IMG/VR virus record: IMGVR_UViG_3300049007_000012
Span: 1 to 52,348 of that record
Origin: a virus
Direction: 5' to 3' (one strand)
DNA: 52,348 nucleotides
Shown: piece after piece, positions 1,533 through 46,203 of the stretch
Position numbering within the stretch: the stretch's first letter is position 1
Layout of the letters: every line of letters begins with the position of its first letter
Translations under genes and position numbers: made by a program
Notes under the pieces: generated by a model
What the model was told of the DNA's origin: nothing
Databases searched by the model: none
The model's input: the letters and a program-made list of their open reading frames with translations, nothing else

Positions 1533-1548
1533 GACTCGTCCTTGCGAT

Positions 1549-1624
1549 GCCCCCATCGTCTAGTGGCCTAGGACACCACCCTCTCAAGGTGGCGACACGG
1601 GTTCGAATCCCGTTGGGGGTGCCA
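1549..1624 (+). tRNA. tRNA-Glu(CUC), carrying attL
   Basis: A 76-nt cloverleaf can be drawn. Acceptor GCCCCCA pairs with UGGGGGU (G-U at 1:72), the D-arm has a 3-bp stem, and the anticodon stem CCACC/GGUGG closes loop CUCUCAA, so the anticodon is CUC. The T-arm has GUUCGAAUC, and the discriminator G is followed by an encoded CCA. From the first base of the anticodon loop to the CCA (1581-1624) the gene is repeated perfectly at 44138-44181, so the prophage inserted here and restored the 3' half. Confidence 0.97.
1581..1624 (+). repeat. attL core (44 bp, inside tRNA-Glu)
   Basis: This 44-bp block is identical to 44138-44181. The flanking bases differ (C at 1580 versus G at 44137; G at 1625 versus C at 44182). 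A tyrosine integrase gene starts about 110 bp inside it. Together these define the left prophage boundary. Confidence 0.93.
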
Positions 1625-1682
1625 GAACAACCAGCAGGTCAGAGGCCCCGGCAAGCCCGGGGCCTCGCCGCGTCCGGGCGGG

Positions 1683-1707
1683 CGTGGAGTCCGCCGTGGA
1701 GTCCACG
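1683..1707 (+). promoter_or_regulatory. Candidate arm-type sites near attL
   Basis: CGTGGAGTCC occurs twice, at 1683-1692 and 1695-1704. The second copy is part of the odd palindrome GTGGA-G-TCCAC (1697-1707). The same word recurs beside attR (44014-44023 direct, 44044-44053 inverted). Presence at both prophage ends suggests integrase or excisionase arm-type binding sites (inference). Confidence 0.45.
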
Positions 1708-1732
1708 GCCCGGCGGGCCTACCGTGGCCGGC

Positions 1733-3052
1733 ATGGCGGGAGCGGAGCAACTGCCCTCGGGGCGCTGGCGACTGATCGTGCACAGGGGCCGGGACCCCCT
1801 CACCGGCAAGAAGATGTACGACCGCCAGGTGGTCGACGCCACCGGGAAGCGGGACGCCCAGCGGCAGGCCGACGAGTGGGAGGTGGACCTCCGCCGCGGC
1901 GAGGTCACCCACAAGGCCGGCACGTTCGCCCAGCTCACTGAGCAGTGGATCGAGACCCGGGGCCGCCGCTGGTCCCCCACCACCCAGCGCGAGAACCCCC
2001 GCATCGTCGACCGCTACCTCACCAAGTCGCTCGGCGAGCTCGACGTCTCCGACATCGGCACCCACACCATCGACCGGTTGTACGGCGCGCTGCTCGAGCG
2101 GGGCGGGAAGTGCCGCAACCGGCCGTGCCCCCGCCAGCCGTGCAAGGACCACGGACCCCGGTGCGAGCGCAAGAAGTGCACCCGGCCGCCGTGCAAGGCG
2201 CACGAGGGGAAGTGCGCCGGCCTGGTGCCATGCGACCGCGCGCCGTGCCCCCACGGCGGGCCGCTCACCCCGGCGACCGTGCAACGCATCCACACCGTGG
2301 TCCGCTCGGCGCTCGAGCAGGCGGTCAAGTGGGGGTGGATCAGGCGCAACCCGGCGGAGCACGCCGAGCGCGGCGAGGTCATCGAGCAAGAGGTCGACCC
2401 GCCGGCGGCTCCCGACGTGGTGCTGCTGCTCGCCGAGGCCGAGGCGATCGACAAGCGGCTCGCCGTCTACCTGCTGGTGGCGATCGAGGCGGGCGCCCGC
2501 CGGGGCGCGGTGCACGCGCTGCGCTGGTCGCACCTCGACCTCGCCACCGGCACCGCCCGGTTCCCGAACGTGGTCGTGATCGGACCCAAGGGCACCGGGG
2601 TGGTCGAGCGGCCGGCCACGAAGTCGAAGCGCACCGCCCGCAACCCCATCGCTATCTCGCCGTGGCTGGTCGCCGCGCTGGTGGCCCACCATGACGACAT
2701 GTTCGAGCGGGCCCGGGCGGCCGACGGCGTGCTGCCCTCGGACGCCCTGGTGTTCTCCGACGACCCGCTCGGCGCCCGCCCGTGGCGCCCGGACTCGACG
2801 AGCCGGAAGTTCCGGACGCTCCGGTGGGCCGCTGGCCTGGACGAGACCCGCCTGCACGACCTGCGCCACTTCATGGCCACCGTGCTCCTCGGGAACCAGA
2901 TCGACCCGAAGGTCGTCGCCGGTCGGGGCGGCTGGTCGAAGGTGGCCACGATGCTCGACCGGTACGCGCACGTCATCCCAGCGAACGACCGGGCCGCCGC
3001 CGACGTGATGGGCCGAGCACTCCGGCCCGCCGAGGATCAGCCCTCGGGGTAG
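1733..3052 (+). CDS. Phage tyrosine integrase with Cys/His-rich insert
   Basis: This 439-aa site-specific recombinase catalyses prophage integration and excision at tRNA-Glu. An arm-binding-like N-terminus precedes a core-binding domain. The catalytic domain has Arg256/257 in EAGARRGAVHALRW, His375 and Arg378 in LHDLRHF, and the nucleophile Tyr411 in DRYAHV; Trp replaces the usual second His in GGWSK. Residues 127-174 form an insert with three C-x4/5-C-x4-C-x1-2-H modules between the core-binding domain helices. The ATG at 1733 is chosen because TACCGT, a TANNNT box, lies 7 nt upstream and suggests a leaderless mRNA. Longer in-frame extensions would run into the tRNA. Confidence 0.93.
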   Translation: MAGAEQLPSGRWRLIVHRGRDPLTGKKMYDRQVVDATGKRDAQRQADEWEVDLRRGEVTHKAGTFAQLTEQWIETRGRRWSPTTQRENPRIVDRYLTKSLGELDVSDIGTHTIDRLYGALLERGGKCRNRPCPRQPCKDHGPRCERKKCTRPPCKAHEGKCAGLVPCDRAPCPHGGPLTPATVQRIHTVVRSALEQAVKWGWIRRNPAEHAERGEVIEQEVDPPAAPDVVLLLAEAEAIDKRLAVYLLVAIEAGARRGAVHALRWSHLDLATGTARFPNVVVIGPKGTGVVERPATKSKRTARNPIAISPWLVAALVAHHDDMFERARAADGVLPSDALVFSDDPLGARPWRPDSTSRKFRTLRWAAGLDETRLHDLRHFMATVLLGNQIDPKVVAGRGGWSKVATMLDRYAHVIPANDRAAADVMGRALRPAEDQPSG

Positions 3053-4941: not shown

Positions 4942-5012
4942 GGCAACACCTAGCAACACCTTGCCTGATCCTGGCCTACGTGTAGCTGGGTGTTGCTAGA
5001 TGTGACAACACG
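4942..5012. promoter_or_regulatory. Symmetric operator/promoter of the immunity switch
   Basis: CTAGCAACACC (4950-4960) and its reverse complement GGTGTTGCTAG (4989-4999) form a perfect pair of 11-bp inverted elements. Extra half-sites GCAACACC at 4943-4950 and GACAACAC at 5004-5011 flank them. Read outward, each side carries GGTGTTGCTAGRTGT, and the embedded TAGGTG or TAGATG is a plausible -10 box. Bound repressor would cover both promoters. Confidence 0.65.
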
Positions 5013-5019
5013 TGGCAGG

Positions 5020-5244
5020 ATGCGGGACGTGCAGATCAACCCCGCAGCCCTCCGAGCGATCCGTGAGCGCTCCGGCATGTCCGTCACCCGGCTGGCCGAG
5101 GCCGCCGGCGTCGACCGGTCGCACCTCTCTCTGATCGAGGCCGGGCGCCGCAAGGCCAGCGAGGAGACGACCGTCGCTCTGGCCCGGGCGCTCAAGGTCG
5201 AGCTGCCGGCGATCCTCACGGACCCCGCCGAGGTGCCGGCGTGA
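5020..5244 (+). CDS. XRE-family regulator (Cro/CI-like)
   Basis: The 74-aa product is almost only an XRE helix-turn-helix domain: INPAALRAIRERSGMSVTRL, then AEAAGVDRSHLSLIEAGRRK and a closing helix TTVALARALKV. The start at 5020 lies 17 nt after the TAGATG box, so the leader is very short. It is the first gene of the rightward early operon and its GTGA end overlaps the next start. Small size and position are Cro-like. Confidence 0.8.
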   Translation: MRDVQINPAALRAIRERSGMSVTRLAEAAGVDRSHLSLIEAGRRKASEETTVALARALKVELPAILTDPAEVPA

Positions 5245-42773: not shown

Positions 42774-44003
42774 ATGGCACGTGACGGCCTCGTAGCACGC
42801 AGACGGCAGCTCGGTCTCAGCCAGGCCGACCTCGCCGCCAGGATCAACGTCGCGGTGTCGACCGTCGCCCGGGTCGAGCGGGGCGAGCAGACCCCGCAGG
42901 CGTACAACCGGCGCCGCTGGGCCGAGGCCCTTGAAGCCAGCCTCGGTGAGCTCGACCGGTTGCTCGCCGGCGATGAGGCCGTCGCTGGGCGGTGGGGGTG
43001 GACCACCGTCGAGGCTCCCGACCTCGGCGACGTCGAGGCCATCGAGCTGATCCGTCGGGTCGAGGCGTCCGACGCCGGTCGGGCCACTCTCGACGCGCTC
43101 GAGCGCGGCGTCGACCGACTGTGCCGCTCGTACACGAACACCCCGCCCGCCGATCTCCTCGAACCCCTGCGGGCGTACCGCTCGTATGTCGTCCAGCTGC
43201 TCGACGGGCATGTCACCCTCGCTCAACGCCGCGACCTGATGGTCCTGGCGGGGTGGCTCTCGCTCATGACGGCGATCTGCGCCATCGACGTGCACCGGTA
43301 CCGGACCGCCGCCTCCAACCTCGACGCCGCCCGCGCGCTCGGCCATGAGGCCGGCTATCCCACGCTCGCCGCCTGGGCCGCCGAGACCGAGGCGTGGCAG
43401 GCGGTCACCGACGGCCGTCACGACGTCGCCGCTCGGCTCTGCCGGGCCGGCCGGGACCTGGCGCCGGCGGACACCTCGGTGCACGTGCAGCTGAGCGTGC
43501 AGGAGGCCAGGGCGTCAGCCCGGCTCGGCCTCACCGCCGAGACACACCAGCTGCTCGACGACGCCGCCACGGCGCTCGACCGGATGCCCGCGCCCGAGCA
43601 TCCCGAGCACCACTTCGTGTTCGATCCCCGCAAGCTGATCGGCTACACCGCCACCACGCTGGCGTGGCTCGACGACGACAAGGCGCTCGCCGAGGACTAC
43701 GCCCGCCAGGCGGTCGCTCAGTACGACGTCGGCGCCGCCGATGGCCGGTGGCTGCGACGGCTGGCGGCTGCGCGGGTCGATCTGGCGCTCGTGCTCGCTC
43801 GTGGCGACCAGCCGGCCGAGGCTGGCCAGCTCGGTGGTCTGGCGATCGCCTCCGGGCGCATGGTCCCGTCGAACCTGTGGCGCCTCGACGAGCTCGACCG
43901 GGAGATGACGGGGCGCTACGGCCGCACGGCCGAGGTCGACGAGTTCCACGACGTCTACCTCGACGCTCGCCAGGCGATGGTCGCGCTGCCCCGCGGCAGC
44001 TGA
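42774..44003 (+). CDS. XRE-family regulator with TPR-like C-terminal region
   Basis: The 409-aa protein has an N-terminal XRE HTH (LVARRRQLGLSQADLAARIN, VAVSTVARVERGEQTP; residues 5-60). A long helical region follows with TPR-like pairs (YRTAASNLDAARALGHEAGY; AAWAAETEAWQAVTDGRHDV; ARLCRAGRDLAPADTSVHVQ). This plan is common in actinobacterial chromosomal regulators of development. It sits inside the prophage next to attR, with its own promoter, so it is a candidate lysogenic-conversion or cargo gene, not part of the phage switch. Confidence 0.8.
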   Translation: MARDGLVARRRQLGLSQADLAARINVAVSTVARVERGEQTPQAYNRRRWAEALEASLGELDRLLAGDEAVAGRWGWTTVEAPDLGDVEAIELIRRVEASDAGRATLDALERGVDRLCRSYTNTPPADLLEPLRAYRSYVVQLLDGHVTLAQRRDLMVLAGWLSLMTAICAIDVHRYRTAASNLDAARALGHEAGYPTLAAWAAETEAWQAVTDGRHDVAARLCRAGRDLAPADTSVHVQLSVQEARASARLGLTAETHQLLDDAATALDRMPAPEHPEHHFVFDPRKLIGYTATTLAWLDDDKALAEDYARQAVAQYDVGAADGRWLRRLAAARVDLALVLARGDQPAEAGQLGGLAIASGRMVPSNLWRLDELDREMTGRYGRTAEVDEFHDVYLDARQAMVALPRGS

Positions 44004-44137: not shown

Positions 44138-44181
44138 CTCTCAAGGTGGCGACACGGGTTCGAATCCCGTTGGGGGTGCCA
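44138..44181 (+). repeat. attR core (44 bp)
   Basis: Perfect copy of 1581-1624, i.e. the tRNA-Glu 3' half from the anticodon loop through CCA. It marks the right prophage end. The stop codon of the minus-strand serine recombinase lies within it (44141-44143). Confidence 0.93.
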
Positions 44182-46000
44182 CGAACAAGGGAACGGGTGG
44201 CCCTTGTGGTGCTACGGCCTGGTCGATGGTCGTGCGGATCGCCGGGATGCGGTCTGCTCGGACGGTCACGCGCACGATGACCGAGTGGCTGGCTGCCTGG
44301 TAGCGCAGTTCGAGGTTGAAGCTGTCGTAGAGGTCGCGCAGCAGTTGCTCGGGCAGGTCGTCGAGGTCCGTTGGCCTGAGCGTCGGTAGCTCGTCGAGGA
44401 GGGTGGGGTCGTCGGGAGGGCCTTCTTGGCGCGTCGTCAGGGCAGCGAGCTGTTCGGTCTTCGTCTTGTGGTCTCGGGCGAGGCGGACGTAGCGGTCTCC
44501 GAGGCGGCTTCGGAGGTCGCGGTCGATCTCCTCGTCGCCGGTCGACTCGTGCATTTCGATCTGGTCGAGCACGTTCTGGCGCCGCTTGTCGAGGTCTGCC
44601 AACTCGGCGTGCAAACGTGCGACCACGGCGTCCGGCACGGGCGGCGAGTCGTCATCCGCGGGGGCGCGGAGTGCGGCTTCTCGCCGTGGGCCGAGGACGT
44701 GCTCGGCGAAGAACTGGTTGGTGAGGCCGAACAGGTCGTCTTCGCGGATCCACATGGTCTTGGGGTGGGTCTCGTACCAGGCGCGGCGCTGGCTGTGGTG
44801 GCGCATGTCGGGCCGGCAGACGTAGTACGAGGTACTGCGACGGGCCTTCCCGTACATCCGCCGGTCGCAGAGCTCGCAGAACACGTACCCGCGGAGGGCG
44901 TAGCTGCGCTGGGCCTGCCGGTGGCTGTTGGGGCCGGATCCGTTGCGGGATCCCTGCCGGGCTCGACCCATCTCGCTGACCGTCTGGTAGTGCTCCTTGG
45001 TCACTAGCGGTTCGTGGGTGGGACGCGGCGACCAGACCCACTGGCTCGGCGGGTTGACCTTGCCGCCCCTCGAGCTGGTGGCACGCCGGTTCCACACCAT
45101 GTAGCCGGTGTGCTTGGGGTTCACCAGGACCTCCCGCACCGCCGAGCCGCTCCATCGACGCAGCGCCCGCTCGGGGTCCACCGGGGTCGGGGGTGGGTGA
45201 GCCTCGGGATCGGCGTTGAGGATGTCGGCGATCGTGCGGTAGCCGAGGCGTTGCACCGCTCGGAGGCTGAAGATCCGGGTCACCGTCGGTCCCTCGACGG
45301 GATGAGGGACGAGACGAGACTTGGTGCGGCCTTCGGCGCGCTTGGCGGCGACCGGATGTGGGATCTTCTCGGCGCGGTAGCCGTAGCAGGGCTTGCCGAT
45401 GTTCCAGCCTTGCTCCGTGTGCTCCGCCGTGCCGTCCCAGGACAGCTCCAGCATCTGGAGCACATACCACTCGGCGACTGCCTGCTTGACCCGCCGGGTG
45501 AGGATCGGGGTCGCTCGCTTGGGAGCCCGCCCTCCACGCGGCCGGGCGAGGTCGGGGAGGGGCTCGTCGGCGGCCAGGAGCATGACCCCTGCCTGTTCGA
45601 GCTCGTGTTCGACCTTGGTGCCGAAGTAGGTGCGCCGGGCGACGCGCTCGACGGATTCGCAGACGACGGCGACGAACCGGCGGTCGGGACGCTGGGCCTC
45701 GGCGAGCAGGTCCTGGATGCCGCCGTCCCGGGGGATGCGGATGTCGAATGCCTCGTGGGCGTGTCCCTTGCCGCGTTCTGCGAGGTCCATGCGCCCGGAC
45801 TCGACGTCGTAGAAGTGGCCGACGATGGCATAGGGGGCCGGCAGAGCGTCCCTGCAGCTCCGCAGCTGCCGTGGCAACGACAGCGTCGGGTCCTGCTGGT
45901 CTTCGTCCGACGTTCGCCCCCACCAGGCCACCGGGATCTGACCGGCGGCCTCGATCGCGGTCGTGACCTTCTCGTCGGCGTCCTGCCAGGGAAACGTCAC
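44141..46000 (-). CDS. Large serine recombinase
   Basis: The 619-aa protein has a resolvase catalytic domain (VAWWGRTSDEDQQDPTLSLP, with the nucleophilic Ser in GRTS; then RQL and a later ESVERVARR), a recombinase domain (GYRTIADILN; VREVLVNPKHTGYMVWNRR), a zinc ribbon (CELCDRRMYGK...YYVC) and a C-terminal coiled coil. GTG at 46000 is preferred because it overlaps the previous stop. The last dozen residues (PPTGFEPVSPP) are encoded by the antisense of the tRNA-derived attR core. It probably mobilises the neighbouring conjugative element. Confidence 0.9.
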   Translation of the reverse strand: MTFPWQDADEKVTTAIEAAGQIPVAWWGRTSDEDQQDPTLSLPRQLRSCRDALPAPYAIVGHFYDVESGRMDLAERGKGHAHEAFDIRIPRDGGIQDLLAEAQRPDRRFVAVVCESVERVARRTYFGTKVEHELEQAGVMLLAADEPLPDLARPRGGRAPKRATPILTRRVKQAVAEWYVLQMLELSWDGTAEHTEQGWNIGKPCYGYRAEKIPHPVAAKRAEGRTKSRLVPHPVEGPTVTRIFSLRAVQRLGYRTIADILNADPEAHPPPTPVDPERALRRWSGSAVREVLVNPKHTGYMVWNRRATSSRGGKVNPPSQWVWSPRPTHEPLVTKEHYQTVSEMGRARQGSRNGSGPNSHRQAQRSYALRGYVFCELCDRRMYGKARRSTSYYVCRPDMRHHSQRRAWYETHPKTMWIREDDLFGLTNQFFAEHVLGPRREAALRAPADDDSPPVPDAVVARLHAELADLDKRRQNVLDQIEMHESTGDEEIDRDLRSRLGDRYVRLARDHKTKTEQLAALTTRQEGPPDDPTLLDELPTLRPTDLDDLPEQLLRDLYDSFNLELRYQAASHSVIVRVTVRADRIPAIRTTIDQAVAPQGPPVPLFVAPPTGFEPVSPP

Positions 46001-46203
46001 GTGCGCCCCATGCGCTCCTGCCGTTGTAGCCACTGGATGATCTCCTTGATCGTGGCGTTCTGGCGGGCCTCAAGTTCGTCGCCTTCCGCCCCGGCCGCCG
46101 GGGTGAACTCGATGCGAGCGACCCGCAGGCGCTCGCGGCGAACTCCCGCCCGGCCGCCCTCAGCTGCGTCGGCATCCGGGAGCGTCTGACGCTGGCCGGT
46201 CAC
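45997..46203 (-). CDS. Small protein coupled to the serine recombinase
   Basis: The 68-aa protein has a helical C-terminus (ARQNATIKEIIQWLQRQERM) and a beta/basic start (RRERLRVARIEFTPA). Its stop overlaps the recombinase GTG, so the two are co-translated. It may be a recombination directionality factor or accessory; no family recognised. Confidence 0.55.
   Translation of the reverse strand: MTGQRQTLPDADAAEGGRAGVRRERLRVARIEFTPAAGAEGDELEARQNATIKEIIQWLQRQERMGRT

Follow-up and report, generated by a model that had tools for sequence, protein, structure and literature searches.

In the available portion of PMC3646895, the core-binding domain of tyrosine integrases is described as built from two helical hairpins in the manner of lambda Int. 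A term count of the accessible main text of the tyrosine integrase classification paper PMC8138268 finds neither zinc nor cysteine, and in the accessible part of PMC3218068 zinc is mentioned once, for another protein, and cysteine is absent. Our literature searches found no account of tyrosine integrases with zinc-type or Cys-rich inserts, although an earlier one may exist in subscription papers. For a metal-stabilised element that might work in a similar way, a comparison is offered by the large serine integrases, whose recombinase zinc ribbon is zinc-stabilised and contacts DNA; they belong to an unrelated enzyme class and fold.

The window analyzed here, the whole 52,348 bases of IMG/VR record IMGVR_UViG_3300049007_000012, contains a prophage integrated in a tRNA-Glu gene (the tRNA, att and integrase features given below are on the plus strand). 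ARAGORN places the intact copy of this attachment gene, tRNA-Glu (CTC), at 1549..1624; the terminal 44 bases of its 3' part form the attL core (1581..1624), which recurs as an exact direct repeat, the attR core, at 44138..44181. Between them lie genes for the integrase, a DNA methyltransferase, terminase, portal, major head protein, tape measure protein and endolysin; the repeats delimit an integrated prophage some 42.5 kb long. Recombination at these att sites is putative, with indirect evidence from the pair of 44-bp repeats, one of which lies in tRNA-Glu. The host probably falls within the actinobacterial group of Acidimicrobiaceae, since the uracil-DNA glycosylase flanking the prophage is 72% identical to that of an uncultured Acidimicrobiaceae bacterium (L007), an assignment based on one gene compared with ten genomes, three of which gave a match. 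A repressor-like regulator (42774-44003, plus strand) adjoins attR, at the opposite prophage end from the integrase, and a second small regulator is encoded at 4990-5244. Just beyond attR, on the minus strand, lies a large serine recombinase of 630 residues (44141-46033; Pfam Recombinase, Resolvase and zinc ribbon), whose final codons overlap the att repeat in antisense and which may derive from another element integrated at this tRNA.

The integrase open reading frame (1547-3052) opens upstream, overlapping tRNA-Glu; the ATG at 1733 is the likely start, giving a tyrosine integrase of 439 residues (1733..3052). Its N-terminal arm-binding-like domain (residues 1-60, 1733..1912) was compared with the layout given in the accessible part of PMC8138268. 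The AlphaFold2 model predicts strands at residues 2-6, 12-20 and 27-34 and a helix at 39-56, that is, the three-strand/one-helix arrangement of IntTn916-like complex integrases; for the beta-insertion between catalytic strands 2 and 3, another IntTn916-like trait, the model is of low confidence at 297-301 and allows no clear assignment. The catalytic domain matches Pfam Phage_integrase at residues 230-414 (2420..2974; E 1.9e-14) and contains the set R256, K297, H375, R378, W401 and Y411, and in overall predicted fold the protein resembles Tn1549/Tn916-type and lambda integrases, lambda Int and Tn1549 Int being the best Foldseek matches (1z1b, 6en2). Judged by its catalytic domain, these residues and the matches of the modelled fold, the protein is a tyrosine recombinase of the phage integrase type. 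W401 stands, near the catalytic Tyr, where at least 90% of aligned sequences have His; some recombinases have Trp in place of the second catalytic His.

Between the third (residues 110-123, 2060..2101) and fourth (residues 180-200, 2270..2332) helices of the core-binding domain, both taken from the AlphaFold2 model, lies a Cys/His-rich insert of residues 127-174 (2111..2254). The initial annotation, which had proposed three successive CCCH modules here, was exact in its coordinates (Cys127 begins at base 2111 and His174 finishes at base 2254), in its count of nine Cys (127, 132, 137, 144, 149, 154, 161, 167 and 172) and three His (140, 157 and 174), and in the spacings. C-x4-C-x4-C-x2-H occurs twice with a 17-residue period, in module 1 (C127-x4-C132-x4-C137-x2-H140, 2111..2152) and module 2 (C144-x4-C149-x4-C154-x2-H157, 2162..2203), and is followed by C-x5-C-x4-C-x-H in module 3 (C161-x5-C167-x4-C172-x-H174, 2213..2254). 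All the cysteines of the 439-residue protein are inside the insert, which is Pro/Arg/Lys-rich, almost devoid of hydrophobic residues and basic (12 Lys+Arg against 4 Asp+Glu, net charge +8). GC content at third codon positions is 0.96 in the insert, equal to the 0.96 of the remainder of the gene; the insert is thus coding in the integrase frame, and a frame or assembly artefact was rejected on the same ground.

The insertion is a discrete one, as had been proposed: the integrase is otherwise complete, the Cys/His pattern is periodic, and close kin are without the insert. Alignment with nine relatives shows it cleanly inserted at the turn from helix 3 to helix 4; in all nine these helices are joined directly by a short Cys-free loop, and the Pfam core-binding matches end at residue 115-117, just ahead of it. 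Given the two-hairpin description in the available text of PMC3646895, the insert would occupy the turn of the second hairpin. In a 45-row alignment, 41 rows contain at most one Cys in the loop region, the other four being plasmid integrases with the CxCC insert described below. The regularity was assessed by shuffling, for a motif picked after it had been seen: at least two strict modules arose in 9.5e-5 and three relaxed modules in 1.05e-4 of 200,000 shuffles of the 48 insert residues, and nine Cys fell within a 48-residue window in 0 of 20,000 whole-protein shuffles. The suggestion of internal duplication survives in part. Modules 1 and 2 agree in 30 of 51 bases, above the maximum of 29 in the lag-51 background of the gene (mean 18.3, sd 3.8), but module 3 agrees with them in only 21 and 22 of 51 bases, within one standard deviation of that background.

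Structure prediction and family searches gave little for the insert. AlphaFold2 without metal models it at pLDDT below 50 (block means 37-45), and the insert fragment modelled without an alignment reaches a mean of 59 with no confident fold. No Pfam family matches the fragment at E<=10, and no PDB sequence match to the insert was found. The CCHC zinc knuckle (C-x2-C-x4-H-x4-C) and the TTP-type CCCH zinc finger (C-x8-C-x5-C-x3-H) were both rejected, as the insert is spaced C-x4-C-x4-C-x2-H and neither has a Pfam match within that threshold; the recombinase zinc ribbon was rejected because Zn_ribbon_recom is unmatched. The original label "CCCH-like zinc knuckles" is qualified by a spacing that is that of neither the CCHC knuckle nor the CCCH finger. 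C-x4-C is not known as a classic zinc spacing.

Searches for the triple insert elsewhere used both DNA patterns and protein fragments. With DNA patterns, which fix codon spacing so that near variants may escape, the two-module form was found in none of 396 genomes from the phylum and in four viral contigs, none with an integrase-like frame; the module-plus-helix form in 0 of 394 Actinomycetes genomes and in one viral sequence that is not an integrase; and the first module, in a viral scan, once, in a frame of 35 residues. The insert fragment as a protein query matched 9 of 148, 11 of 397 and 1 of 286 genomes. Apart from two integrases (L147 and L148) among the 397 genomes of one order, these matches either cover the downstream helix and at most the last insert residues, or lie in segments without an integrase (L040, L047, L048 and L163) or, for L050, in an integrase fragment. 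Against phages and plasmids the fragment matched 3 and 1 records, by the downstream helix alone, and no relative was confirmed in viral scans for which the insert fragment, the L148 protein and a fragment of L094 served as queries. Within the genomes, viruses and plasmids searched, the exact triple CCCH insert is found only in this integrase.

The initial annotation had also held that tyrosine integrases normally have no metal site at this position. This is true of its closest relatives; elsewhere among actinobacterial integrases, Cys-rich inserts of other kinds occupy the same loop, and the helix 3-4 loop is a recurrent site of Cys/His-rich insertion in these proteins. Three further types were observed. 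The first, CxCC...CC...CC (L030-L033, L071-L082 and L086-L092, from Streptomyces, Nonomuraea and other Actinomycetes), differs from the insert of the window integrase in that seven Cys, with one Asp and one Arg, are invariant in 20 of 20 rows and no His is conserved. A query of this type matched 15 of 118 genomes (12 after removal of three weak non-integrase matches, L083-L085); L093 lacks the Cys. A plasmid search for the loop yielded 15 records, 14 from Streptomyces and one from Nonomuraea. At three annotated Streptomyces plasmid loci (L030-L032) the gene has as neighbours a helix-turn-helix gene and either a replication initiator or a DUF3631 gene, an arrangement that resembles integrating conjugative elements of actinomycetes.

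The second type, here called CysHis, is of variable length with the pattern C-x3-C...H-x-C (L094, L095-L097, L117, L135, L137, L138, L140, L142 and L146, all from Actinomycetes). These four ligands, together with a Tyr and two Arg, are invariant in 11 of 11 rows; the window insert instead starts with C-x4-C and ends with C-x-H. The long inserts of L094 and L135, however, end in C-x4-C-x4-C-x2-H-x-C, reproducing the module spacing of the window integrase. Searched with the window integrase, 40 Actinomycetes genomes gave 70 match rows, of which 40 were taken and 30 omitted (including five CxCC integrases already in the set); 37 of those taken had at least 330 residues and were aligned, and five of these (L094-L097 and L117) have a Cys/His insert. 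With an L094-type query, matches were found in 9 of 197 genomes. The third type is a mini-insert of 14 residues in L147 and L148, which shares its GG[K/R]C starting point with the triple insert and has a single C-x-H-x5-H-x4-C site, the C, H, H and C being common to both, in place of three CCCH modules. Retention of the ligands while the filler varies in these analogous inserts has, as far as sequences can tell, the look of metal sites.

In trees from which the insert columns were excluded, these types separate. The larger tree contains 102 rows (65 insertless, 20 CxCC, 11 CysHis, 5 with long non-Cys loops and the window integrase), many of them retrieved with Cys-bearing queries, so that row counts are not frequencies. 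In it the CysHis clade has a support of 100 and the CxCC rows are far off. In a 49-row tree the window integrase belongs to a set of five rows (98/94), together with two integrases that lack an insert (L041 and L155) and the two mini-insert rows. The CysHis rows form a separate clade (100/99). Forcing the window integrase together with the CysHis rows costs 30.95 log units (p-AU 0.031), which disfavours shared ancestry outside the insert; adding the mini-insert rows to this group costs 92.98 log units and is rejected (p-AU 5.9e-7). These p-values are indicative, the groups having been named by insert after the first tree and the rows of the smaller trees hand-picked. Grouping the window integrase with the mini-insert rows alone costs 6.71 log units (p-AU 0.077, to be read in the same way), and one insert gain common to these three is possible. 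A single gain of all Cys inserts was rejected, both because the types lie in separate clades and because the constrained trees are disfavoured. As the types fall apart in insert-free trees, at least three separate gains of Cys/His inserts at one loop are likely; repeated loss or loop exchange is a possible alternative. The branch of the window integrase is long (1.19 changes per column), which could reflect relaxed constraint.

Our preferred interpretation, held with moderate confidence, is that the insert is a metal-stabilised extension of the core-binding domain, the metal being likeliest zinc, that adds DNA or subunit contacts. Its parts differ in strength: the insert probably binds metal, rather less surely holds three metal sites, and a contact with DNA or a subunit, suggested by basic charge and position, has about an even chance of being its function. 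The twelve ligands would make three four-ligand sites, which would hold the shape of a short Pro/Arg/Lys-rich stretch in the second hairpin turn, and the basic (+8) extension, placed where the fourth helix begins, could then contact DNA flanking the core att site or a neighbouring subunit of the synaptic complex. The sites might be three tandem CCCH units; alternatively, C127/C132 and C172/H174 might form a base site beneath two inner CHCC sites (C137-H140-C144-C149 and C154-H157-C161-C167), a layout resembling the C-x3-C...H-x-C pattern invariant in the CysHis clade. The interpretation is favoured by the confinement of all Cys to the insert, their regular spacing, its exact position, its basic charge and the invariant ligands of analogous inserts, as well as by the presence of the catalytic residues and of att repeats flanking phage structural genes. 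The metal reading is weakened by the lack of a second copy of the triple insert, the poor AlphaFold2 models, the empty Pfam and PDB searches, the C-x4-C spacing and the long branch.

The best-surviving alternative, that the insert is an expanded surface-loop repeat tolerated as a mostly neutral spacer, with neither metal nor function, seems unlikely but deserves consideration. Loop length varies widely, and five of the 102 rows (L034, L107, L116, L118 and L128) have long inserts without the Cys-rich pattern, so the loop tolerates varied insertions; the orphan state of the triple insert on its long branch and the apparent duplication of modules 1-2 at the DNA level would also suit a spacer. The same non-Cys loops indicate, however, that length alone needs no nine cysteines, and neither the ligand regularity above that of shuffles nor the recurrence of Cys/His inserts with invariant ligands in separate clades fits neutrality well. 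Cys-rich zinc sites can in principle be oxidised, and a switch in which metal loss or Cys oxidation would alter integrase activity, as had been raised at the outset, is improbable: the sister integrases L041 and L155 lack Cys in the loop, and a structural role would be the simpler reading. Binding of a cofactor other than zinc is more improbable still. An iron-sulphur cluster could be held by the seven invariant Cys of the CxCC inserts, without conserved His, but the insert of the window integrase matches no Pfam family of that kind and a repeated CCCH pattern is more typical of zinc.

Returning to the metal-stabilised extension, the triple CCCH form is new among the sequences searched and belongs to a recurrent, apparently unnamed kind of insert. 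We tentatively propose, as a broader possibility that falls somewhat short of an even chance, that the second hairpin turn acts as a plug-in slot, at which separate actinobacterial lineages independently gained modular metal-stabilised mini-domains that grow and shrink by whole modules and retune which att DNA or partner subunit is held; the window integrase, with three CCCH modules, would be its most repetitive case. The helix 3-4 loop is easily deleted or swapped, which makes its role directly testable in a family of enzymes that are well studied and widely used as tools. Should the inserts prove to bind metal and contact DNA, a natural route to altered site specificity would be at hand, and their repeated and independent gain at a single loop, if true, would provide a clear example of convergent modular evolution.
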